A stretch of DNA of 34,606 bases from Erysipelotrichaceae bacterium (GTDB lineage Bacteria > Bacillota_I > Bacilli_A > RFN20 > CAG-826): contig JAAYSH010000037.1 in assembly GCA_012518415.1 (NCBI GenBank), positions 1-34,606 on the forward strand, given 5' to 3'. Below the pieces are notes generated by a model that saw only the letters and a program-made list of their open reading frames with translations, did not search any database and was not told the origin of the DNA. This document shows positions 7,082 to 22,657 of the stretch, piece after piece; position 1 is the stretch's first letter; every line of letters starts with the position of its first letter. The position numbers and the translations under genes are program-made.

Positions 7082-10000
7082 TTAATTTAAAACAAGCTTA
7101 TCTTCTTCTGCATATAAGCGAACATGGGAAGCGTTCCGGCCACGTAAGACAACAAGTGTTTCATCAACGTGTTCACTAATATCAGCGATTTTATCACTTG
7201 GGGCTGATACAATTGCTTGTAAGTTAAACTTTCTTAGTAACTTAATTGATTCACGGATTCGTCCACTGTCCATTTTTGAAAACGCTTCGTCAAAAATAAT
7301 TAAGCGGACCGTGTCCCCAAGTGTTCCTGTTTCATTAACGTGATATAGTTGGGCAAATGAAGCGAGGACGGAGATATAAAATGGTGTTTGCGTTTCTCCA
7401 CCTGATTTTTTCTTAATCATTTTTGATAGACGCTGCGAGCGACCTTCTTTATCTTTAACAACAAGATCAAAGTCTAAATAAGAACGATAATCGGTTAGTC
7501 GTTCAACATTTTTAAGGACTGCTGCACTTGTTTCTTCTTCATTACCAGAAACGATTTGGGCAAATAGTTCTTTCATTAAATTATCGTATTTTTCTAAGAA
7601 TCTTGTATCATCTTCATCAATTTCTAATAATAAATCATCAGTAATCATCTCATAATACGGTAAGTATGTTGATGAGGGTCTCACACTAAATTGGTAAGAG
7701 TCACTACCAAATGTTGAGGCACTTAGTGCATAGTTTAAATCTTCGATTTGATCTTCAACTGTTTCAATCGCTCCCCGAAGTTTAGCGATAAAGTCAGTTC
7801 TAAATTGATGGACAGCTTTAGAGTAAGCGTCATTAATTTTACCTTCATATTCAGGTAGTTTAACTTCGGAAAAGTCACTAAGTTCATCATCATAAATCTC
7901 ATTATCACTCTTATCAATATCGTATGTAAGCCGGTATTCGCGGACATAGTCACGGCGCTCTTTTTGGAGTGTTGAAAAAAGATTATTAACTAAGTACTGC
8001 GAATGCGTAACTTTGACGTTATATTCAGTAATAATTTCTAACGGTGATTTCCCGGCTTCGATTAACTCATTAAATGCTGGTTCAGCGACTTCAGCAATTA
8101 AAAACGGATCATATAGGGAGTTAATTCTTGTTTCGCGCTCATGAATGAGTTTTTCTTCGGCGGGAATTTTTTCTTCACGTAAGTTTGCAACAAGGTTCGT
8201 TAACTTACCTTTTTCTTCAAAGTATGTATTTTGACTTTGCTGCATTGCTGCAATATCTTCATCGATATCATCGATGCGCTTTTGCAGTGAATCTAGCTGC
8301 GCGGTATCATATTTTTCTAACTCTTCTTCTAAATAAGCGATATTTTTCTCAAGACCGCTGATCTTTTTAATATTTTCTAGAGAAACAATTGTTGCCGCGA
8401 TTTCGTTAGAGTTAATAATTTCTAACCGGTTACCTTCATCAATTGGGCGGGAAAGTGCGGTTAATTTATTATTTAGCGAGACGAGATTAGCAATTTCTTT
8501 TTCTTTTGCTTGAAGTTGCTCTTCACCAATTGAACGGCCAATAAAATGTTCAGCATAAAGTCTTGGGTTAAGTTTGCCAAACCCAAAGTTACGGTATAAA
8601 TCACCGTCTTTTGTGATCCCGTTACCGGAATTTCTTGCTGCTTGAATATTACTTGCTTTATGGAGCCGGCCTATGAGGAAGTTCGTGTAGGCTCTTGCAC
8701 CTTCATGGTTAGTAATAATCTCCGTTGCAAGCGAATTATGTTCAGCGACATAACCACGTTCGATAATTCTTGAATCATCGACTAAAGTCGTACCGTAGTA
8801 GTTTTCTTTATCAAGTAAGTTACGAAGTATTTCATAAGCTTCAAGATAATAAGTTGGATCAACGAATAAATTGAATTTTTGATTATGTAAAAATCCTTCA
8901 ATCGCATTCGCCCACTCTTCACTTTTAATATCGACTAAGTCAGCATATATGTCGACTTTAATATCTTTATTATGGCGGCGTGATAGTTCATCTTCAAGCG
9001 CACGCCGAATCGACGTTAATTTCCACTGGTATGATTTGCCGCCTTGTTTCATATCAATTAATTGCTGGCGTAGCAGGGCAAGTTTTTGCGAATTCTCGTT
9101 AATACTTTGACCAAGTGTTAAAGCGAATTTTGCTAGTGAGTCTTTAAATTTAACTAAACTATCGCGCCAGTTATGGAGTGATTCGCTCGAAAGTGAAAAC
9201 AAATCTTTTAACCCCTGGTCACGGAGCGCAAGACTTAAATTTAGGACCTCCGTTGCTTGATCTTGAAGTTCATCAAGTAAAGTAACATTTGCCCGAGAAA
9301 AAATTGAAACATCAACTTTACGTAATTCATCACTTAAAGACTGGGTAACTGCACTAAAAGATGCGATATAACGCGTTAAGTTACTTTGAATTAAGTCAGC
9401 TTCTTTATTAAGTGCATCTAAGTCTTTTTGCGCAGTTTCTTTTTGTTCGAGTAATTCATCGCGGAGCCGATATGTATCTGACATCGCTTTATCTTGAATT
9501 AAGCGCATTTTCTTGCGGTTTAATTCTTGAATATTAGTCTCTGCTTCTTTAACGTCATCATCGATTAAAGCAAGCCGCGCATTCGCTTGTTCAACTTCTT
9601 TTTTATAAGCTTCAAGCCGCTTTAAATCATTCGCATAGCCCGCTTTTTCAACGATATATGAGTTAACTTGCATATTATTATTTTCGCTAACATAGCGGTT
9701 ATGAATATCTTTGATTTTTTCGAGTCTTTCTACACGTTTACGCATATGTTGAGCTTCAACTTCAAGTTTACGGTACTGCATAATATTTTCTTGCATCGGG
9801 GCAATATCAATATTATCTTGCGGATCACAAACATATTCAGTAATAAATGTCGTAATATCAGTAATTGGTGAAAAAGAAACTGATTTCTTTAAAAGTGAGA
9901 AATACTTGTCTTTTAGTCCGCCGAATTGCCGTTTTAAAAATGATTGATACTGACGGTTAGAATCAAAGAAATTAAATTTATTTGGATAATGTTCACCTAA

Positions 10001-10462
10001 GTACTTATTAAGTGTTTTATAATCCATCGGAATATTATTTAAAATAAATTCGTTTTCCGGCATCGTGTCTTCTAAAACAAAGAAGCGATGTTCATGGGAA
10101 CCATCTTCATAAGAGTCAAATACTCCGCCTAAAACAAAATATGTATCATCAAGTGTATTTTTAAATTCAAGGGCAATATAACTTGTAAACCGACCGTTGC
10201 GTAAATAGTGGAAGCCGCCATCAACCGCATCACCTAGTTCACCACGAAGATAACCGCGTAATGTTCGGTTTGATTTATCCATCGCTGCTTTATTAAAGAA
10301 GCGACCACTTGTATCACCAAGCAAAACAACTTGAAGGGCGTCGATTAAAGTCGACTTACCCGAGGCGTTTAATCCAGTCAGGAAGTTTATTTGTTGGAAA
10401 TCAATCGTTTCATTCCAAAAATAATGCCAGTTGATTATTTTCATTTTTGTTAATAGTTTCAT
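7082..10462 (-). CDS. jetC: JetC/MksB-like SMC ATPase of a Wadjet-type condensin
   Basis: The protein (1126 aa) has the architecture of a MukB/JetC-type SMC ATPase. An N-terminal Walker A GLNASGKST lies at about residues 30-38, followed by long coiled-coil arms. Near the C terminus are the ABC signature SGGETQTPFY (from about 1020) and the Walker B IIFDEA (about 1054-1059). The QTPFY form of the signature and the short distance between signature and Walker B are typical of JetC/COG4913-like proteins rather than of canonical Smc. Such ATPases are loop-extruding motors that, with JetA and JetB, act on circular plasmid DNA or organise chromosomes. Its ATG overlaps the jetB stop by four bases. 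No jetD nuclease gene follows, and glgC is the next gene downstream. Confidence 0.88.
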   Translation of the reverse strand: MKLLTKMKIINWHYFWNETIDFQQINFLTGLNASGKSTLIDALQVVLLGDTSGRFFNKAAMDKSNRTLRGYLRGELGDAVDGGFHYLRNGRFTSYIALEFKNTLDDTYFVLGGVFDSYEDGSHEHRFFVLEDTMPENEFILNNIPMDYKTLNKYLGEHYPNKFNFFDSNRQYQSFLKRQFGGLKDKYFSLLKKSVSFSPITDITTFITEYVCDPQDNIDIAPMQENIMQYRKLEVEAQHMRKRVERLEKIKDIHNRYVSENNNMQVNSYIVEKAGYANDLKRLEAYKKEVEQANARLALIDDDVKEAETNIQELNRKKMRLIQDKAMSDTYRLRDELLEQKETAQKDLDALNKEADLIQSNLTRYIASFSAVTQSLSDELRKVDVSIFSRANVTLLDELQDQATEVLNLSLALRDQGLKDLFSLSSESLHNWRDSLVKFKDSLAKFALTLGQSINENSQKLALLRQQLIDMKQGGKSYQWKLTSIRRALEDELSRRHNKDIKVDIYADLVDIKSEEWANAIEGFLHNQKFNLFVDPTYYLEAYEILRNLLDKENYYGTTLVDDSRIIERGYVAEHNSLATEIITNHEGARAYTNFLIGRLHKASNIQAARNSGNGITKDGDLYRNFGFGKLNPRLYAEHFIGRSIGEEQLQAKEKEIANLVSLNNKLTALSRPIDEGNRLEIINSNEIAATIVSLENIKKISGLEKNIAYLEEELEKYDTAQLDSLQKRIDDIDEDIAAMQQSQNTYFEEKGKLTNLVANLREEKIPAEEKLIHERETRINSLYDPFLIAEVAEPAFNELIEAGKSPLEIITEYNVKVTHSQYLVNNLFSTLQKERRDYVREYRLTYDIDKSDNEIYDDELSDFSEVKLPEYEGKINDAYSKAVHQFRTDFIAKLRGAIETVEDQIEDLNYALSASTFGSDSYQFSVRPSSTYLPYYEMITDDLLLEIDEDDTRFLEKYDNLMKELFAQIVSGNEEETSAAVLKNVERLTDYRSYLDFDLVVKDKEGRSQRLSKMIKKKSGGETQTPFYISVLASFAQLYHVNETGTLGDTVRLIIFDEAFSKMDSGRIRESIKLLRKFNLQAIVSAPSDKIADISEHVDETLVVLRGRNASHVRLYAEEDKLVLN

Positions 10463-11091
10463 ACTTGTTCCCTTTCTTCCTCGCGAAGTGCTAGTGCGTC
10501 AAGTGTTTCACCCATTGTGACAATTTGCTCGTTAGATACAGCAAATGTAATTGATGGGAGTAAATAAAAGGCGACGTTACCTTGGTCATAAGAGCCACTA
10601 ACTTTGGCGATAATATTGTAATCAGCAAGTATTCTTAAGGCACGGCCAATTAAGCGGCCACTAAGTCTTCTTCCAGGTAGCGTAATTCCGCGGTCATACA
10701 TTACTTGTAGGACATGCGGAGTCGTTATATATAGTGATTCGCCCGTCTGCGCACTTTCGGAGCGTTCATTTTCATAAATTAAGCGTAAGACAAACGCGAT
10801 TAAACTTGTTTCGCGGTCAAGTTTAACCCGGTTATATTCATAATCATTTGATAAAGAAAATACACCCATAATTAAATCTCGTTCCAATGAGTAACCAATA
10901 AATGATAAGTAATCAGAGACAAGGTCATAGTTTTCCTCTAAGAAACGAAAATCTGGGTTAATTTTAATTGTTTTTGCCCGTGTGTCATATAAATCACGGA
11001 CAATAAACGATGTTGATAATAAGTTGTTTACCGCTTTAGCAAAATTATTTTGATCGCTTTGCGATAATTCAATAAAACGTTCTTCAAACAT
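10459..11091 (-). CDS. jetB: JetB/MksE-like winged-helix subunit
   Basis: The 210-aa product sits between the kleisin-like JetA and the SMC ATPase JetC, as JetB/MukE proteins do. It has the size and the helix-rich, winged-helix-like C terminus expected (a GRLIGRALRILADYNII segment around the predicted recognition helices). In known systems this subunit binds the kleisin and contacts DNA. A frame extending to 11166 exists but overlaps jetA by 74 bases without a ribosome-binding site. The ATG at 11091 follows the jetA stop by one base and has AAAGGAG upstream, although with long spacing (13 bases). The call leans on position as much as on sequence. Confidence 0.75.
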   Translation of the reverse strand: MFEERFIELSQSDQNNFAKAVNNLLSTSFIVRDLYDTRAKTIKINPDFRFLEENYDLVSDYLSFIGYSLERDLIMGVFSLSNDYEYNRVKLDRETSLIAFVLRLIYENERSESAQTGESLYITTPHVLQVMYDRGITLPGRRLSGRLIGRALRILADYNIIAKVSGSYDQGNVAFYLLPSITFAVSNEQIVTMGETLDALALREEEREQV

Positions 11092-11092
11092 A

Positions 11093-12523
11093 TTAGGCTT
11101 CGAGCTCCTTTCGCTTAAAAGTGAAATTTGGGATGCGGTATTTACCATTAACGACATAATCTTCATGGTCTTCTACCGTATAAAATGATGTTTCATCATT
11201 ATTTTTTAACGAGGCTAAAATAAGTAAAATAAAAGCATCGAAATCGACAAGCGGAATTTCTTCAGCTTTTAAAATCGATGAATCGCCAAAGGCTGTTTCC
11301 ATAAAATCATAAACTCTGGCGTCGGTAAAAATATTCCGTGTTTCATCAAGAAATCCTTCCATTAGCATCGTTGAGACATCATCATAATCAACAATTGGGA
11401 GTGGTTCACCGACTTCACGGTATTTCCTCACGATTGGATACATAAGTGAATCACTACCGATATATCCTTGTTTCGTTAAATTAACAGCTTTTTGCATATT
11501 TGTTAAAATCGGACCTAAGTTATCTTCATTAACAACTTTTTCTGCATATGCTTTAAAAATTGTATCTAAATGACCTTTAATTGTTTTATCGGTGTTATTT
11601 AAATATAAAATCTTTGATGACATCGCTTTTGTGTAATCTTGGTGGCGCATGTCAATTTCATCGATCATATTTGAAAGCGTTTCATACATATCGCATATAT
11701 AGTTGATTTTTTCGATCAAATCTCTTTCTGCTTCTTCATCATCAAGCCGACGATTCCAAACTTTCGCCTGCTTAATTAGTGTTTCCCGTGTTTCACGGTC
11801 ATATAGCCAGCGCTGTAAAATTGAAATAATTGGTCGTTTAAATTTTGCAACACTATCAAAAGTCTTTAATGGGTGATAATAGCGGTCACTAACATATTCT
11901 TTATAATTATCAAAATAATCACGGAGAATATTATTTGTTGAAAAGACGCGGCCAAGCCGGTTTTGATAAATGCGAATTGAATGACCGAGTGTGACTAATT
12001 CGGTACGGAGTTTTTTCGTGTTTTCATAGGCACGTAAAAGCGTCGCGTACATGAATTCATCCGGTTCATCATCTTCGAGCCGTAATTCACTGTAAGTCGC
12101 GTGCACTAAGGAAACGTATTTTGCCTCTTCATCACTTGTTAATTTATAAAGTAATTCCATAAAGGCGATTGAGTATGTAGGTAGCGCGATATATTCTTCT
12201 AAAGACCGAGAATCAATTTCAACTTCAAACCAACCTGTCTCTTCAAGCCGGCGGACGATATAAGCAGTTTTAGTTGCAAGTGTTTGCTTACTTTCTAAAT
12301 ACTCATCTTCATCATCTTCATCAAGGTCTTCTTCAACAATATACGCCATGATTTGGTTCGTTGCTTTTTCTCTTAAAGCACGAAGATAATCACTTTTTTT
12401 AATACTCATTTCATCACTTTCAAGTGATTCGTATAAAACTAGGAGGGCATCTACGTATATTTCTCGGTTAGGACTAGCTAAAACGGAGAAAAAGTTTCCT
12501 GGTACCAAATTATAAAGCCGCAT
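11093..12523 (-). CDS. jetA: JetA/MksF-like kleisin subunit
   Basis: This 476-aa protein is the first gene of the jetABC operon and resembles the JetA family of Wadjet systems (formerly a DUF family), the MukF-like kleisin that bridges the two SMC heads. It begins MRLYNLVPGNFFSVLASPNR, has an acidic linker (EEDLDEDDEDEY) near residues 63-74, and is helix-rich after that. No catalytic motif is seen, as expected for a structural subunit. The Shine-Dalgarno GGAGGAG is strong and the next gene upstream is divergent, so transcription of the operon starts here. The family assignment is from recognition of sequence plus operon context. The Wadjet subtype cannot be fixed without a profile search. Confidence 0.8.
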   Translation of the reverse strand: MRLYNLVPGNFFSVLASPNREIYVDALLVLYESLESDEMSIKKSDYLRALREKATNQIMAYIVEEDLDEDDEDEYLESKQTLATKTAYIVRRLEETGWFEVEIDSRSLEEYIALPTYSIAFMELLYKLTSDEEAKYVSLVHATYSELRLEDDEPDEFMYATLLRAYENTKKLRTELVTLGHSIRIYQNRLGRVFSTNNILRDYFDNYKEYVSDRYYHPLKTFDSVAKFKRPIISILQRWLYDRETRETLIKQAKVWNRRLDDEEAERDLIEKINYICDMYETLSNMIDEIDMRHQDYTKAMSSKILYLNNTDKTIKGHLDTIFKAYAEKVVNEDNLGPILTNMQKAVNLTKQGYIGSDSLMYPIVRKYREVGEPLPIVDYDDVSTMLMEGFLDETRNIFTDARVYDFMETAFGDSSILKAEEIPLVDFDAFILLILASLKNNDETSFYTVEDHEDYVVNGKYRIPNFTFKRKELEA

Positions 12524-14973: not shown

Positions 14974-15837
14974 TTAATATTGGATCTTTTGTTTTGCAAC
15001 TTCATCATATACTTTTTGGTAATTTTCATATGAAGTTTTTGCAAGTTTCCCTTCATTAACAGCCTCTTTAACTGCGCAGTTATGCTCACTTAAATGCTGA
15101 CAATCATTAAAGAAACATTCACCTAAATACTTATTAATCCCAGGATAATAAAGCGGAAGTTCTTCTTTTTGTAGTGGCAGCGTAAATGAAGAAAATCCTG
15201 GTGTGTCACTTAAAAATGTTTCTTCGCCAATGGGGAATAAAATTACTTCTCTTGTCGTATGTCGGCCGCGTCCGCCGCGAACACTGTATTCACCAGTTCT
15301 CCGATTAAAAGCAGGGTAAAGTGCATTAATAAGTGCAGATTTGCCTACTCCGGTTTGGCCCATCATCGCGGTTGTTTTACCTTTTAATAATCCGCGAATC
15401 GCTTCAACACCTTCACCGCTTAAATTGTTAACTAAATAATATTCAACTGCGAGTTTTTCTAAGATGTTTGTTATTTCTTTAAGTTTATCTTTGCTAACTA
15501 AATCAATTTTACTTATAACGACGAGTGGTTTTACATACTCAATTGAATTAGCGTACGTTAAAAACGTTTCAACTAAGAGTGAAGAAAAATCTGGTTCTTT
15601 CGCACTCATAATAATTAATAATTGATCGATATTAGCAATTTTTGGGCGGATGAGTAAGTTTTTTGCAGGAATTAATTCACTAATAATTAAGTCATCTTGA
15701 TTAAAAGTTACATAATCGCCAACAATAACATTACGGTTAAAATGTCTTAAGTTACCGCTTAAGTTAACATCATAAATTTCACCTTCAAAATATACTTTAA
15801 AGTTTGAGCGAAATGCACTAATAATTCTTGCTTTCAT
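14974..15837 (-). CDS. rsgA: Ribosome small-subunit-dependent GTPase RsgA
   Basis: RsgA is a circularly permuted GTPase that helps the late maturation of the 30S subunit. The 287-aa protein shows the expected order: an OB-fold N terminus, then G4 SKID (109-112), G1 GQTGVGKS (160-167) and G3 DTPG (211-214), then the zinc-binding region with C241, C246, H248 and C254. Its ATG overlaps the stop of the kinase gene by one base (TAATG), and AGAGGAAG provides the ribosome-binding site. It is the last gene of the rsmB-like/rlmN/prpC/prkC/rsgA run, where the kinase is a plausible regulator of ribosome GTPases, as known in Bacillus. Confidence 0.97.
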   Translation of the reverse strand: MKARIISAFRSNFKVYFEGEIYDVNLSGNLRHFNRNVIVGDYVTFNQDDLIISELIPAKNLLIRPKIANIDQLLIIMSAKEPDFSSLLVETFLTYANSIEYVKPLVVISKIDLVSKDKLKEITNILEKLAVEYYLVNNLSGEGVEAIRGLLKGKTTAMMGQTGVGKSALINALYPAFNRRTGEYSVRGGRGRHTTREVILFPIGEETFLSDTPGFSSFTLPLQKEELPLYYPGINKYLGECFFNDCQHLSEHNCAVKEAVNEGKLAKTSYENYQKVYDEVAKQKIQY

Positions 15838-16721
15838 TAATTTTCTTCCTCTGTTGCGAATCCAAAAAAGCGGACAAAAAAATTTACATGTGGCTTTAAT
15901 AATTCCGGGTTTTCTTTAATATTTTCTAAGTCTTTAACGAATAAATCAACACTTTTATAACGGTTTCTTGGCCGTTTTTTACATGCCCGCATAATAATTT
16001 TTTCTAATGCTTTTGGCATATTTGCAATATATTTTTTCGGGCTTGGGAAGCGTTCTTTTATATGCTTAAGCGCAATATCTTCATTAGTTTCACCGTCAAA
16101 AGGGAGTCTGCCGGTCACAAGTTCAAATAAAGTTACACCAAGCGAATATATATCACTTGCGTAAGTCGCTTCTTTGCCTTGGGCGACTTCTGGTGCTAAA
16201 TAGTGAGCTGAACCAACGATAATCCCATCTACTGGAGATAAATTTATTTTCGCGACCCCAAAATCACCTAACTTAATGACCCCATCAGTTGTTAAAAAGA
16301 CGTTTGTAGGTTTAATATCGCAGTGAATAATTTTATTTTGATGAGCGAAACTAACAGCTTTTCCTAATTGAATCATCGCATCAATTGCTTCGATGTAAGT
16401 AAAGCGGCGCCTTGCATCAAGTAACTCCTGGAGTGTTGCCCCAACAATAATTTCATTAATAATATAGGGACGACCAAGATGAGACCCTAAATTAATTACA
16501 TTAACAATATTTGGATGAGATAACTTTGCACTCGCGCTTGCTTCATTACGGAAGCGGTTTTTAAAGTTTTCATCACTAGCTAGTTGCTCATGCATAAGTT
16601 TAACTGCAACTCGCCGCTTATTTATTATATCAAAGCCTTCATATACTTCGGCCATCCCGCCTTCACCTAAAAAGGAAATTACCCGGTACCGTTCATCAAT
16701 TAAATGACCGATTTTAATCAT
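15837..16721 (-). CDS. prkC: PrkC-type Ser/Thr protein kinase, soluble, non-RD
   Basis: The 294-aa protein is a Hanks-type kinase in the position of prkC. Visible elements are the glycine loop LGEGGMAEVYEG (19-29), VAVK with the catalytic lysine K41, E60 of helix C, HCDIKPTN (133-140) with catalytic D135, DFG (153-155) and GSAHYLAPE (170-178). It stops after the catalytic domain, with no membrane helix and no PASTA repeats, whereas Bacillus PrkC is 648 aa and membrane-bound. The usual HRD arginine is Cys134, and the segment between DFG and GSAHY holds one serine and no threonine. It is translationally coupled to the phosphatase gene (ATGA) and to rsgA. Kinase activity is likely but not certain. 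Confidence 0.9.
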   Translation of the reverse strand: MIKIGHLIDERYRVISFLGEGGMAEVYEGFDIINKRRVAVKLMHEQLASDENFKNRFRNEASASAKLSHPNIVNVINLGSHLGRPYIINEIIVGATLQELLDARRRFTYIEAIDAMIQLGKAVSFAHQNKIIHCDIKPTNVFLTTDGVIKLGDFGVAKINLSPVDGIIVGSAHYLAPEVAQGKEATYASDIYSLGVTLFELVTGRLPFDGETNEDIALKHIKERFPSPKKYIANMPKALEKIIMRACKKRPRNRYKSVDLFVKDLENIKENPELLKPHVNFFVRFFGFATEEEN

Positions 16722-17464
16722 ACATCCGCCTCCAATAAGGCAACTGCGATATTATCATCACCGCCATTTTCATTAGCTAAAACAACTAGCGTAGCAACTT
16801 TTTGCTCGACTGCATCATTAGTCGAAAGAATGTTACTTATTTGTGAAGTCGTTATGCGGTGATATAATCCGTCACTACATAATAAAATCGTTTCATTTTT
16901 ATACAGATAGTGATTAATTTCGATTGGAGTTTTTGCGTGGAGTCCAAGTGCATTTGTTAATATATGTCTTCTTGAATCACTTGAGCGTTCTTCTTCACTT
17001 ATATGCCCACTTTTAATTAAATAGTCGACATATGTTTGATCTTCACTTAAAAGTGTAAGTCCTTCAGACTTCTCAAATTTATAAGCTCGTGAATCACCGA
17101 CATTAGCAATAATTATACTATTTTTTAAAATTAGCGCACATATAAGTGTTGTCCCCATTCCACCTTTAATATTAGTTTCTTTTGCATGTTTAAATATACG
17201 TGTATTTGCTTTACGGATTGTTTTTCTTAACCATATTTTGGCTGATAAGGTCGTAAAAAACCTTGACTTTGCTCTAAACGTTTCAATAAGTGTATCACAT
17301 GCTAGTTGGGCCGCAATTTCGCCACCATCATGGCCTCCCATCCCGTCTGCAACAACCATTAAAACATCACCACGCGAATTAACGACAATATATCCACGAT
17401 CTTCATTTTTCTCGCGAACTTTACCTTTATCAACTTTTACACTGTAGCGCTTTGGGGTTCTCAT
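16718..17464 (-). CDS. prpC: PP2C-family Ser/Thr protein phosphatase PrpC
   Basis: The product (248 aa from the chosen start) is a PPM/PP2C phosphatase that would remove phosphates placed by the neighbouring kinase. Metal-binding and core motifs are present: EKNED (18-22), VVADGMGGH (37-45), GTT in GGMGTTL, GDSRAY (123-128), CSDGL (196-200) and GGDDNIAV (234-241). A frame extending to 17497 exists, but the ATG at 17464 overlaps the rlmN stop as ATGA and has AAGGAGG eight bases upstream, so it is preferred. The gene pair prpC-prkC after rlmN is the conserved Firmicutes order. Confidence 0.95.
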   Translation of the reverse strand: MRTPKRYSVKVDKGKVREKNEDRGYIVVNSRGDVLMVVADGMGGHDGGEIAAQLACDTLIETFRAKSRFFTTLSAKIWLRKTIRKANTRIFKHAKETNIKGGMGTTLICALILKNSIIIANVGDSRAYKFEKSEGLTLLSEDQTYVDYLIKSGHISEEERSSDSRRHILTNALGLHAKTPIEINHYLYKNETILLCSDGLYHRITTSQISNILSTNDAVEQKVATLVVLANENGGDDNIAVALLEADV

Positions 17465-18501
17465 GAGTTTTCCTCCTTCGCCCGAAGTTGACCACATGCC
17501 GCATCAATATCAGTTCCAAATTCTTTGCGCACGGTTGTTGTAATTCCCCGTTTAATTAAACGGTCTAAAAACGCAGATACGCGATTATTTGGCGTGCGCT
17601 GGTACGGAAGTTCTTCAACTGGATTAAATGGGATTAAGTTTACATATCCGTTTGTTCCGCGGATTAAATCACTTAATTCATCAGCGTCTGCAAGTGAGTC
17701 ATTAACGTCTTTAAGTAAAATATATTCATAAGTAACGCGGCGATTTGTCATTTTTTCGTAGTATTTAATCGCTTCCATTAACGCTTCTAATGGATAAGTC
17801 CGGTTAATTTTCATTAACCTTGAGCGCGTCTTATTATTTGCAGCGTGAAGCGAGATTGCTAAGTTAACTTGTAAGCCTTCATGGGCGAACTTTTTTATTT
17901 TATCTGGGATTCCGCATGTTGAAATTGTTAAGTGACGGGCGCCAATTTCTAGTCCGTATGGGTGATTAATCAAACGAATAAAGTTAAGAACATTATCATA
18001 ATTATCAAACGGTTCTCCTGTCCCCATAACAACAACATGAGTTACTCTTTCACCGTTACCTTCTTCACGGAGTAAATCATTCATGATAAGTACTTGAATA
18101 AGCATTTCACCAGTTGTAAGGTCACGGCGTTTTCTTAGTAAACCCGAGGCGCAGAAAGTGCAGGCCATATTACAGCCAAGCTGGCTTGTCACACAAACAA
18201 CATTCCCGTAACTATATCGCATTAATACAGCTTCTACGAGCGCGCCATCTTCAAGTTCGATGAGTAATTTAATTGTCCCATCACTACTTACTTGTTTTGT
18301 ATGAACTTTTCGCTGAGGAAAATAAAAATCGCTAAGTAGTTCCTCACGAAATACTTTTGATATATCACTCATTTCACTAAAATCAGTTACTTGTTTTTTA
18401 TATACCCACTTAAAAAGTTGGGTCGCGCGGTAATTACTTTGACCGCGGTTTGCTAGTTCTTCTTGAAGTAATTCGTAAGAAAAATCATAAAAATTAAGCA
18501 T
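17461..18501 (-). CDS. rlmN: 23S rRNA/tRNA adenine-C2 methyltransferase RlmN
   Basis: RlmN is a radical SAM enzyme that methylates C2 of A2503 in 23S rRNA and of A37 in some tRNAs. In the 346-aa product the iron-sulphur cluster cysteines CNMACTFC are C110, C114 and C117. C103 and C336 match the two mechanistic cysteines. The GTGEPFDN motif is present. An ATG at 18507 lies almost on the AAAGGAAG site; the ATG at 18501, eight bases after it, is preferred. The gene overlaps the end of the rsmB-like gene by eight bases and the start of prpC by four, so all are in one transcript. Confidence 0.96.
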   Translation of the reverse strand: MLNFYDFSYELLQEELANRGQSNYRATQLFKWVYKKQVTDFSEMSDISKVFREELLSDFYFPQRKVHTKQVSSDGTIKLLIELEDGALVEAVLMRYSYGNVVCVTSQLGCNMACTFCASGLLRKRRDLTTGEMLIQVLIMNDLLREEGNGERVTHVVVMGTGEPFDNYDNVLNFIRLINHPYGLEIGARHLTISTCGIPDKIKKFAHEGLQVNLAISLHAANNKTRSRLMKINRTYPLEALMEAIKYYEKMTNRRVTYEYILLKDVNDSLADADELSDLIRGTNGYVNLIPFNPVEELPYQRTPNNRVSAFLDRLIKRGITTTVRKEFGTDIDAACGQLRAKEENS

Positions 18502-19747
18502 CTTCATCTTCCTTTCTTTTTAATAGCGCATAATAAAATATCGTGTCATATTTATCAAACGGGAGAAATTGTTTTTCTTTTACTAAGGTAAAGTTCGGAT
18601 TACTTTCTAAGAATTCACTTATAAGGGCGTGTGATTCTTTATTAGAAAATGTATCAACTAAATATAGTAAATGTCCCCCCTTAATTACGTGGCTAGCAGC
18701 CTCATTTAAAGTCGCTTCTTGGTGAGCAATTATTTGATCAAGTTTACTCATATCAAAATGCACAAAGAAGTCTGCCTCTTTTCTAATTTTATCAAAAGAT
18801 GAGGATTTCGGGAAAATAATAACTGCATCTTTTTTACTGCGGATAAATGTAATAAGTAAGTTATGATCGGCTTTATATAAAAACACATTAGATAAATCAT
18901 AGTATTTATCAATTTGTTCAAAATAAAGTTCATCTTGAAGTGAGGGCAAGGCTAGATCAATTTTTAGTTGCTTTGAAAATGTAAGCGATAAGTCCACAAC
19001 ACTATTAGAGCGGTTTTCATCAATAATTAAACATTCATCACCTTTTTTAAGCGGCAAATATTTTAAAGCTTGTTCAAGGGCAAAGTTATGTAAATAAATT
19101 TCATTATTTAAAAACGCTGCATCATTTTCAAGGTCAATTCCGGTGTAAGTAAAAGTATTTGTGACTGGACCTTTTTTGTATGCATAAGGTTTAGTTAAAA
19201 TATTTTCTAGCTTCCCGTCTTTAATATTTAATTTTACTTGTGGAAGTGCATCGTTATTAACTTTTCGCAGCAGCGGCATAAAAATCCGCGGATTAATATT
19301 TTTTCGCCACATCTTTATTAAGCCAGGTGGTAAATTATATAAAAGTCCAAAATACGCGTCACTTTCTTGTTCTTCTTTACTAACTTTTGGTAAGAGGCCA
19401 TTAAACTGAAGTGAGAGATTAAAAAGACTTTGTGCGGCTTCTAAATTAAGTTTATGCTCACTTATATAAAAGTTATTAAGATCACTGACAATTTCTTCTT
19501 TACTTAGTTTATGGCTAAAATGAACATCGGCTAAAATAATTAGCCAAAATAATTTTTCTTCACCTTGTAGTTTTTTTGGTGAGTGTTTATCAAGGAAGGC
19601 AAAAATTCTTAGGTGATACTTAAGCGCGGTATTTAAAATCATTGCTTCACGGTTATGCGTAAATAGTTCGCTTACTTCAGTGACTTTTTTACCTTGTTCA
19701 AAGATTGCGTTTAAACTTGCTAAAATGTTTTTACTTACTAATTTCAT
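18494..19747 (-). CDS. RsmB-like protein without methyltransferase active site (probable pseudoenzyme)
   Basis: The 417-aa protein lies where rsmB, the 16S rRNA m5C967 methyltransferase gene, stands in Firmicutes and follows its plan: a NusB-like N terminus (1-130), a linker with LLRKVNNDALPQVKLN (159-174), and a Rossmann-like C terminus. Landmarks remain at VIKGGHLLY (354-362) and DTIFYYALL (401-409). The active site is gone. SAM motif I (normally DLCAAPGGKT) reads IIDENRSNSV. The PCS box is PKS with K314. The TCS box is VDT, with D365 in place of the catalytic Cys. The only cysteine is C239. The frame is intact and coupled to rlmN, so it is probably expressed. It has no visible ribosome-binding site and may be translated from a leaderless mRNA. 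Confidence 0.8.
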   Translation of the reverse strand: MKLVSKNILASLNAIFEQGKKVTEVSELFTHNREAMILNTALKYHLRIFAFLDKHSPKKLQGEEKLFWLIILADVHFSHKLSKEEIVSDLNNFYISEHKLNLEAAQSLFNLSLQFNGLLPKVSKEEQESDAYFGLLYNLPPGLIKMWRKNINPRIFMPLLRKVNNDALPQVKLNIKDGKLENILTKPYAYKKGPVTNTFTYTGIDLENDAAFLNNEIYLHNFALEQALKYLPLKKGDECLIIDENRSNSVVDLSLTFSKQLKIDLALPSLQDELYFEQIDKYYDLSNVFLYKADHNLLITFIRSKKDAVIIFPKSSSFDKIRKEADFFVHFDMSKLDQIIAHQEATLNEAASHVIKGGHLLYLVDTFSNKESHALISEFLESNPNFTLVKEKQFLPFDKYDTIFYYALLKRKEDEDA

Positions 19748-19866: not shown

Positions 19867-20430
19867 TTAATCGTTGCAGCTGCAATCTTCATCTTCATCA
19901 CAGTCGCACTCATCATCACAGCATTCATCATCATCGCCTTCGCAACAAGATCCGCGTTTTGAATCTTCTACGTATTTACCTTCTTCAAAATCATATCCTT
20001 CGAAAACATTGCCTAAGTAAAGTGTATTTTCATCGACTTCACTTAGATCATCTTCTTCAAAGTAGTCATCATCATTAAATAAGTTTTGTTCACCAATAAA
20101 GCGAGGGAAGTCACTACTTGCACGCGTATATACTTTACCTTCAACGTATTCAAAATATAAGGCCATATTTAAGACGTAGTCTTTTGTTGCTTCTAAAATA
20201 TAATCGGCGATTTCTTCTTCGTACTTAGCATAATCTTTTGGCATATTAATAATTGTTACCGCGTGCCAGGAAGTTTGTTCAACGCCGTCATGGAAAATGT
20301 ATGAGCGAGGAGCATAGAAAAATACTTCCTCATCTTCATTACCAATTATTTTATTAATTGCTTGTCCGGCTTGCTTTGATAAGCGACCAGTAATATATTC
20401 ATCTAGTCCTAATATTTTAATAAAAATCAT
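19867..20430 (-). CDS. Tautomerase-like (DUF1904-type) protein with a Cys/Asp-rich tail
   Basis: The 187-aa protein has an N-terminal part of about 110 residues that looks like the DUF1904 group of tautomerase-fold proteins (MIFIKILGLDEY start, then SYIFHDGVEQ and a helix rich in E and A). This match is tentative. From about residue 115 the chain becomes acidic, and the last 29 residues carry all eight cysteines of the protein with 15 Asp/Glu, in groups such as SCCEGDDDECC and ECDCDEDEDC. Such a tail suggests metal binding, but no known motif fits. The Shine-Dalgarno AAGGAG lies ten bases before the ATG. It follows priA by 31 bases and ends the gmk-priA operon, where Bacillus has def and fmt. 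Confidence 0.7.
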   Translation of the reverse strand: MIFIKILGLDEYITGRLSKQAGQAINKIIGNEDEEVFFYAPRSYIFHDGVEQTSWHAVTIINMPKDYAKYEEEIADYILEATKDYVLNMALYFEYVEGKVYTRASSDFPRFIGEQNLFNDDDYFEEDDLSEVDENTLYLGNVFEGYDFEEGKYVEDSKRGSCCEGDDDECCDDECDCDEDEDCSCND

Positions 20431-20461: not shown

Positions 20462-22657
20462 TTAAATATCAAGTGTATCGACATCAATATTAATTGTAAC
20501 ACGAGTGTTTTCAATTAGTGGCCTGAACGCTTTAAATAATTCCGGTTTTATCTTAAAGTAATTTTTGTATTTAATAATAATATTTTGGAAGTAGTAACCA
20601 CCAAGATAATCAATGTATGGTAATAGTGGTCCTAGTACTTCAGCGTCATCTTTGAGTTTAACTTGTAAATCACTTGTAAGAATCGCAGCTGTTTTTGCGG
20701 TTAGTGTTTTATCTTTAGAAGAAATACTTACTTTCATTAAATATGAATAAGGCGGATAATTATGCATATTTCTTATGCGCATTTCATAGTTATAAAATGT
20801 TTCATAATCTTGTTTAGCAGCAAGATTAATAACGTAGTGGTTTGGCATATTTGTTTGAATATACGCACTGCCTATTTTATCACTTCGTCCGCTTCTGCCA
20901 ACCGCTTGAGTTATAAGCTGGAAGGTAGTTTCACTTGAGCGATATGAAGGGAAGTTAAGTCCTAAATCAGCAAGAACAACACCAACAAGGGTGACATTAG
21001 GGAAATCATGCCCTTTGGCAATCATTTGTGTCCCAATTAAGATATTTGCTTCTTGATCAGCAAATTGTTTCAACGTTTTTGCAATTTTTGAGCGTACTTT
21101 TGCACTATCACTATCAAGGCGAAGCGTTTTGGCATTCGGGACGAGTTTATTAACTTCTTCTTCAACGCGCTGTGTGCCAAATCCTGTTTTCCAAAGTGTT
21201 TTATTTTGACAGTTTGGACAAGTAGTTGGGAAAAATTCAACATGGTCGCAGTGATGACATTTAAGCATTTTATCAAACTCATGATATGTAAGTGTTGCCT
21301 GGTCATTTGGACATTTAAATACGTGATTACAGCTGCGGCAATTTACATACGTTGCATAACCGCGGCGATTAATAAGTAAAATTGCTTGTTCGCCCTTATT
21401 CACGACTTCTTTTAATTTACCTAGTAGTTGCCTTGAAAATATAACACTTTCTGGAGCGAAATTAGTTGGGTTTTGCATATCAATAATATGCGTGGTTGGT
21501 AAAGCTTGTTCATTAATTCGTTTTGGTAAGCGTAAGTGTTTATAAACCCCTTTAAGGGCTCGAGTTCTTGTTTCAAGTGAGGGGGTTGCTGAACCAAGTA
21601 AAACTTTGGCACCACTTAATTGCGCCCGGAAAAGGGCAACTTCACGAGCATGATAATAAGGATCAGTGCTTTGTTTATAACTTTCAACATGTTCTTCATC
21701 TAAAATAATTAAGCCTAAGTTTTTTACTGGTGCAAAGATTGCACTTCGGACGCCGACAACAATTTGAGCCTTACCACTTGCAATCCGGCGGTATTCATCG
21801 TAGCGCTGAGCGTTAGTTAACTCACTATGCAGGACTGCAACTTCTTCACCGTAGCGCGATAAAAACATCTTGACCATCATCGGAGTAAGGGCGATTTCTG
21901 GGACGAGCATAATAACTCCCTCGCCCTTTTTTACATATGCTTCGGCTATTGCTAAATAAACTTCAGTTTTCCCGCTTCCCGTTACACCTTCTAAAAGGGC
22001 AACACTTTGCGTAGCAACAAAAAACTCTTCAATAACTTTATTTTGATCGGTTGTTAATTTTGGTTTACTTTTGCGGTTAACTTTAGGTAATTCGTAGCGG
22101 CGTTTTTCTTTATATTCGAGCTTAAAATGACCGCTTTCTAGTAGTTTACTTACACGGTAGTCATTACCTGCATGTTTTCTTAGTGTTGGTCCATTACTTT
22201 TAACAAATAAATAAGTCTCCGTTAAAGCGGGGGTTAAGTCACTATCATCATCTTTAGCGATACTTACATACGTATCGTAGGCGATTTTTGGTCCGCTTAG
22301 TGCTCCCCTTGTTGGTCTTAGTGAAACGGGGAGCATTGCTTGTAAGACACTTATATGCGGGGCATAGTAGTAACTAGAAACGATTTCTGAAAGTTGGACT
22401 AATTCGTTTGATAATATCGGTGCCTCATCAAGGACACTAATGATTTTTTCAACAACGAATCCGCGCTTTTTTTCAACTTCTTCGATACTTAAATGAGTTT
22501 GTTCAACTTTTAGCACGTATCCAACGAGTTCTTGTTTATTAAACGGCACATATACGCGCATACCTGGTTCGATGGTTAAATCGCCATCGTAAGCATATAA
22601 AAAGGGGCGATCAAGTGACCGCGCTTTTAGTTCAATTAAGACATCGAGTAAAACCAA
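20462..22657 (-). CDS. priA: Primosomal protein N', replication restart helicase PriA
   Basis: PriA recognises stalled forks and reloads the replication machinery. The 731-aa protein has the N-terminal DNA-binding region, a helicase core with Walker A GVTGSGKTEVY and the DEEH box in LIILDEEHVESYKQ, four paired cysteines (CRSC, CPND, CHHC, CPNC region) that bind zinc, and the late motifs GTQMIAKGHDF and QAVGRSGR. All are typical. The start codon is TTG, seven bases after GAGGTG that overlaps the gmk stop. The frame shows no better alternative. gmk-priA adjacency is the Bacillus order, but rpoZ and coaBC, which lie between them there, are absent here. Confidence 0.96.
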   Translation of the reverse strand: MVLLDVLIELKARSLDRPFLYAYDGDLTIEPGMRVYVPFNKQELVGYVLKVEQTHLSIEEVEKKRGFVVEKIISVLDEAPILSNELVQLSEIVSSYYYAPHISVLQAMLPVSLRPTRGALSGPKIAYDTYVSIAKDDDSDLTPALTETYLFVKSNGPTLRKHAGNDYRVSKLLESGHFKLEYKEKRRYELPKVNRKSKPKLTTDQNKVIEEFFVATQSVALLEGVTGSGKTEVYLAIAEAYVKKGEGVIMLVPEIALTPMMVKMFLSRYGEEVAVLHSELTNAQRYDEYRRIASGKAQIVVGVRSAIFAPVKNLGLIILDEEHVESYKQSTDPYYHAREVALFRAQLSGAKVLLGSATPSLETRTRALKGVYKHLRLPKRINEQALPTTHIIDMQNPTNFAPESVIFSRQLLGKLKEVVNKGEQAILLINRRGYATYVNCRSCNHVFKCPNDQATLTYHEFDKMLKCHHCDHVEFFPTTCPNCQNKTLWKTGFGTQRVEEEVNKLVPNAKTLRLDSDSAKVRSKIAKTLKQFADQEANILIGTQMIAKGHDFPNVTLVGVVLADLGLNFPSYRSSETTFQLITQAVGRSGRSDKIGSAYIQTNMPNHYVINLAAKQDYETFYNYEMRIRNMHNYPPYSYLMKVSISSKDKTLTAKTAAILTSDLQVKLKDDAEVLGPLLPYIDYLGGYYFQNIIIKYKNYFKIKPELFKAFRPLIENTRVTINIDVDTLDI

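Follow-up and report, generated by a model that had tools for sequence, protein, structure and literature searches.

RsmB (Fmu/Sun; E. coli entries 1sqf and 1sqg) is the methyltransferase responsible for m5C967 of 16S rRNA. For rRNA methyltransferases in general, it is an open question whether the methyl mark or the contact of the protein with the precursor particle accounts for their retention. Deletion of rsmB in E. coli causes the 17S precursor to accumulate, RsmB acts ahead of S19 incorporation, and that study suggests that the enzyme speeds assembly or prevents misassembly (PMC7056703). Within the same superfamily, catalytically dead human NOP2/NSUN1 still rescues rRNA processing (PMC9561284), and the assembly role of NSUN4 is separable from methylation (PMC3916286). 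Here we describe an RsmB homologue without a methyltransferase active site, hereafter pseudo-RsmB, encoded on the 34,606-nt contig JAAYSH010000037.1 of an Erysipelotrichaceae bacterium (assembly GCA_012518415.1); this whole stretch is referred to as the window, and all coordinates are window positions (Table 1). On balance, we slightly favor the reading that the gene is an rsmB ortholog whose product no longer binds AdoMet, is without the catalytic cysteine and persists as a non-catalytic helper of 30S assembly.

Table 1 Features of the pseudo-rsmB locus and of the encoded protein, in window coordinates.
Feature	Positions	Strand	Evidence
pseudo-rsmB, 417-aa RsmB homologue without methyltransferase active site	18494..19747	-	intact ORF; profile-profile comparison; AlphaFold2
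NusB-like helical N-terminal domain, residues 1-125	19373..19747	-	AlphaFold2 helices; structural match to full-length Fmu/RsmB; charge comparison
N-x-P...MW linker motif, residues 138-147	19307..19336	-	N138 in 49/50, P140 in 49/50, W147 in 46/50 family rows
Rossmann methyltransferase-like domain, fold kept, residues 216-411	18515..19102	-	AlphaFold2; Foldseek; motif table
AdoMet glycine loop position, residues 243-249, CAAPGxK replaced by DENRSNS	19001..19021	-	G247 and K249 in 26/26 intact; K249 in 0/66 pseudo
Motif IV position, residues 312-319, DAPCSGxG replaced by FPKSSSFD, Ser315 at Cys position	18791..18814	-	alignment; tallies
Motif VI position, residues 363-366, STCT replaced by LVDT, Asp365 at nucleophile position	18650..18661	-	Cys in 26/26 intact, 0/66 pseudo
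rlmN, downstream neighbor	17461..18507	-	ORF; PF04055 and PF21016
PP2C phosphatase - protein kinase - rsgA, remainder of conserved rsmB locus	14974..17497	-	Pfam
priA, upstream anchor of rsmB locus	20462..22657	-	Pfam; order same in relatives

The locus follows the order priA, a small gene, pseudo-rsmB, rlmN, PP2C phosphatase, protein kinase, rsgA and an rpe-like ORF. Pseudo-rsmB occupies the position upstream of rlmN that serves as a lineage marker, and it overlaps rlmN by 14 nt (18494-18507). The reading frame spans 417 codons on the minus strand from ATG to stop, while shuffled versions of the sequence contained 33 stops on average and none was stop-free. The preliminary description, made from the sequence of the window, had claimed an intact 417-codon frame in the conserved rsmB position with coupling to rlmN, and these claims agree with the frame, the overlap and the identical gene order in relatives. 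The small gene between priA and pseudo-rsmB (19867-20430, minus strand) encodes a protein of 187 aa with an acidic, Cys-rich tail and a sub-threshold match to DUF1904, and its place is conserved in relatives, even in those without pseudo-rsmB. Elsewhere on the minus strand, the window carries an HsdM-like type I restriction-modification methyltransferase by the contig edge (66-2822) and a Wadjet type I locus with jetA, jetB and jetC at 7082-12523 (PADLOC E-values of 3e-131, 6e-62 and 0). A glgC-like ORF comes after jetC, and JetD_C (PF09983) was not found in the genome; either jetD is absent from the MAG or the locus encodes an SMC system without JetD.

By sequence alone, the protein falls under every curated RsmB cut-off, with weak RsmB and PF01189 matches (Pfam, 18 bits against a cut-off of 27; NCBIfam RsmB, 36 bits against 319). 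Profile-profile comparison of 24 members of its family (f1) with six intact RsmB proteins of the order aligned 415 columns with an E-value of 5.6e-46 and a probability of 100%, and nine members of two further families, f2 and f3, reached 6.6e-65 against intact RsmB; single f2 and f3 proteins still match the RsmB model along nearly the full length of the model. (The codes f1 to f25 and g1 onwards denote GTDB families and genera, respectively, f1 being the family of the window protein.) AlphaFold2 predicted a complete RsmB fold for the window protein (pLDDT 88, pTM 0.85), for which Foldseek returned E. coli RsmB (1sqf, TM 0.83) as the top PDB match. The model of one f3 protein (pLDDT 90) had E. 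coli RsmB (1sqg, TM 0.82) and the archaeal homologue PH0851 as top matches. According to AlphaFold2, Foldseek and the profiles, the NusB-like domain, linker and Rossmann domain are present in the RsmB order, and the linker motif is among the best conserved parts of the pseudo-family. The elements on which the preliminary description had based an RsmB plan, namely a NusB-like part, GGHLLY and FYYALLKRK, were confirmed, the first in the predicted fold and the latter two at residues 357-362 and 404-412, and C239 is the single cysteine, as it had stated. Locus, profiles and fold show pseudo-rsmB to be a direct descendant (ortholog) of rsmB.

Motif tallies were compiled for 26 intact and 66 dead sequences (50 from f1, nine from f2 and seven from f3). 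The AdoMet-loop Lys, the motif-IV Asp (F312 in the window protein) and the motif-VI Cys were each present in all intact and in none of the dead sequences. The motif-IV Cys was likewise found in 26/26 intact proteins and persists in 8/66 dead ones, all eight among the 50 f1 members (e.g. QCSKFD) and all without the Asp; thus, motifs I and VI are lost throughout the sample, but the motif-IV Cys survives in part of it. Nearly all sequences keep G358, Y362, T366 and E371, which is insufficient for catalysis. The missing SAM glycine loop and the replacement of the catalytic TCS cysteine by Asp365, both claimed in the preliminary description, are borne out by the alignment with intact relatives. Its assignment of Lys314 to the PCS cysteine was one residue off: when read ungapped from the retained RxxPD, D-A-P-C-S-G falls over F312-P313-K314-S315-S316-S317, so that Lys314 occupies the proline and Ser315 the cysteine position. 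This shift leaves the conclusion that the active site is lost unchanged. An alignment or frame artefact is ruled out, since 50 sequences of the family share these losses and align with intact RsmB without difficulty.

The dead form, with AdoMet loop and nucleophile gone, was found in every homologue examined in three families: 50 proteins of f1, 11 of f2 (nine tabulated, plus G158 and G164, which agree on visual inspection) and seven of f3. Intact RsmB is present in f4, f6, f7 and f8 of the same order (eight genomes), at the same locus in f4 and f8, and in 20/20 representatives of other families of the class. At those f5 loci that could be read, no homologue was found upstream of rlmN. Within f1, pseudo-RsmB is kept in 131 of 146 genomes. 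Genera g5 and g8 lack the gene through clean deletion, as does at least one genome of g6; rlmN persists in these lineages, and the role of pseudo-RsmB must therefore be dispensable there. A contig search using the alignment of one genus retrieved 17 loci, 15 of which, from MAGs of uncultured Bacilli, encode relatives of full length, while a contig scan with the window protein alone found nothing. Those contigs of the relatives that could be named are from MAGs, several of them from rumen projects, labelled Erysipelotrichaceae, Bacillales or Bacilli. In an RlmN tree, f2 and f3 each formed one group, and the intact families grouped together with f5, save for G278. The free tree implied two state changes, and holding the families without pseudo-RsmB together cost 0.22 lnL (p-AU 0.49), so that a single loss is compatible with, although not proven by, this single-gene tree. 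Judged from these sequences, the loss is old and is compatible, most simply, with one event in the common ancestor of the three families of the order.

Selection was assessed in close relatives. In pairs more than 80% identical, dN/dS was 0.07-0.13, and 0.06-0.16 for the dead domain alone; further pairs gave 0.067 in f3 and 0.061 in genus g29, compared with 0.147 between two intact RsmB genes of the order. One distant f3 pair reached 0.35, and many distant pairs were saturated. The window genus comprises one other genome, and with pseudo-RsmB only 34% identical to its counterpart there, dN/dS is not measurable along the lineage of the window itself; the differences by codon position from this sister genome (0.53/0.40/0.60) indicate constraint, yet are near saturation. 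Among the other f1 members, 29 alignment columns are conserved to 85% or more, and the window protein matches 24 of them. These data bear on the possibility that the gene is slowly decaying, a relic that survives only by chance or for the sake of rlmN translation. Clean deletion in several lineages would fit such a relic, as would the faster divergence relative to rlmN, whose product is 72% identical in the sister genome and whose dN/dS is lower (0.01-0.05). Decay is nevertheless nearly refuted by the purifying selection in close pairs (dN/dS about 0.06-0.13), which is low in the dead domain too, by stop-free full-length homologues at 24-34% identity, and by the persistence of rlmN where pseudo-rsmB is deleted.

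Conservation is distributed unevenly along the protein, with mean pairwise identities within f1 of 23% for the N-terminal domain, 31% for the linker, 20.5% for the old cofactor half of the Rossmann domain and 40% for its C-terminal half. One might suppose that the former cofactor site now serves a different ligand or reaction in a remodelled domain, for which the well-conserved C-terminal half and a family-specific SSxFD stretch could be cited. A new active site would, however, hardly be expected in the least conserved region, which is where the cofactor pocket lay and where the motif-I positions vary freely, and we regard this explanation as improbable. A function away from the ribosome through the NusB-like domain, e.g. 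in transcription antitermination, has a similarly small probability: this domain is retained in the fold, but is less conserved than both the linker and the C-terminal half.

A substitute for the lost activity was sought among PF01189 proteins. The window genome, a 96% complete MAG, contains one PF01189 gene, which rules out a relocated intact RsmB as far as the assembly goes. An RsmF-type gene was not found in this genome, though most f1 genomes have one, their second PF01189 protein being a strong match. Each of the best 30 intact PF01189 loci of f1 had either an RsmF-type architecture or, in genus g5, the catalytic domain only, and no second RsmB-type enzyme was found there or in the window genome. 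The g5 loci L032, L034 and L038, from genomes without pseudo-RsmB, encode an intact methyltransferase of about 297 aa that resembles RsmB without the NusB domain. A change of the target base as driver of the loss is ruled out by the presence of C967 at 36/36 16S sites found in the order, including that of the window genome, with a search pattern that left this base free and the position placed from the E. coli sequence.

Some two-subunit methyltransferases have inactive subunits, and pseudo-RsmB may by analogy associate with or regulate a second modification enzyme, e.g. RlmN, RsmD or RsmF, without catalytic activity of its own. RsmD modifies G966, the neighbor of C967, and has a strong match in the window genome; together with the overlap of pseudo-rsmB and rlmN, its retention would be in keeping with a partner role. 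The rlmN adjacency is, however, ancestral and common to intact RsmB, which has the same neighbor, and RsmF is ruled out as an obligate partner, since the window genome, G020, G014, G043 and G144, among others, keep pseudo-RsmB without another strong PF01189 match. Overall, we consider a partner function unlikely.

The losses in three families, the low dN/dS in relatives, the retained fold and the lack of a second RsmB-type enzyme in the genomes searched support the proposal of the preliminary description that the protein is a retained pseudoenzyme, and we are highly confident that it is retained and methylation-dead. This suggests that the cells kept pseudo-RsmB for a job other than methylation, which is probably to help build ribosomes; for a non-catalytic role in 30S assembly specifically, by analogy with the studies of RsmB, NOP2/NSUN1 and NSUN4 introduced above, we see an even chance. 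In such a scenario, the rsmB product, deprived of AdoMet binding and of the catalytic cysteine, most simply once in a common ancestor of the three families, would have been kept as a non-catalytic body of NusB-like domain, linker and Rossmann domain. Near 16S helix 31, this folded body may still assist the assembly of early 30S precursors, but would no longer methylate C967. We infer that the protein contacts 16S rRNA or the pre-30S particle. The median net charge of pseudo-RsmB, compared with that of intact RsmB of the order, is -2 versus +5 for the whole protein and -3 versus +4.5 for the N-terminal domain, whereas the linker is more positive (+5.5 versus +1). As the whole protein and its N-terminal domain are less basic, rRNA binding cannot be assumed, and the charge shift indicates that the binding mode has probably changed. 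The broader proposal, that a three-family clade of gut Bacilli converted a conserved bacterial rRNA methyltransferase to a factor devoted to 30S assembly and devoid of enzymatic activity, with C967 kept and the methyl mark dropped, is tentative, and we place it a little below even chance.

With methylation apparently removed and the protein under strong selection in three families, the two roles of RsmB become testable apart, and if pseudo-RsmB is indeed a dedicated assembly factor, it would represent a natural separation-of-function experiment on RsmB. For annotation, an RsmB label assigned from position and homology should not count as evidence of m5C967. In the literature searched, which left most subscription journals outside its coverage, we found no earlier report of an inactive, retained RsmB; within that scope, the pseudoenzyme at the rsmB locus is new, while fold and family were already known.

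Compared with RsmB itself, pseudo-RsmB shares the locus, the domain plan, the whole fold (TM 0.83) and homology over 415 columns, but is devoid of the AdoMet loop, the motif-IV Asp/Cys and the motif-VI nucleophile, and scores under all cut-offs. RsmF (YebU), another 16S rRNA m5C methyltransferase, belongs to the same PF01189 superfamily and is an intact enzyme in most f1 genomes; unlike pseudo-RsmB, it has the methyltransferase domain first, followed by an extra C-terminal part with about 200 aa after TCS, retains the catalytic motifs and is encoded at another locus. The Mollicutes, small-genome bacteria of the same class, include groups that dispense with m5C967, but there rsmB was lost outright in several groups (PMC4014445), whereas the pseudo-RsmB protein was kept without its active site. 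NOP2/NSUN1 and NSUN4, of the same superfamily, have assembly roles independent of methylation (PMC9561284, PMC3916286); these, however, are active enzymes with a second role, while the pseudo-RsmB homologues examined are all without the catalytic residues.
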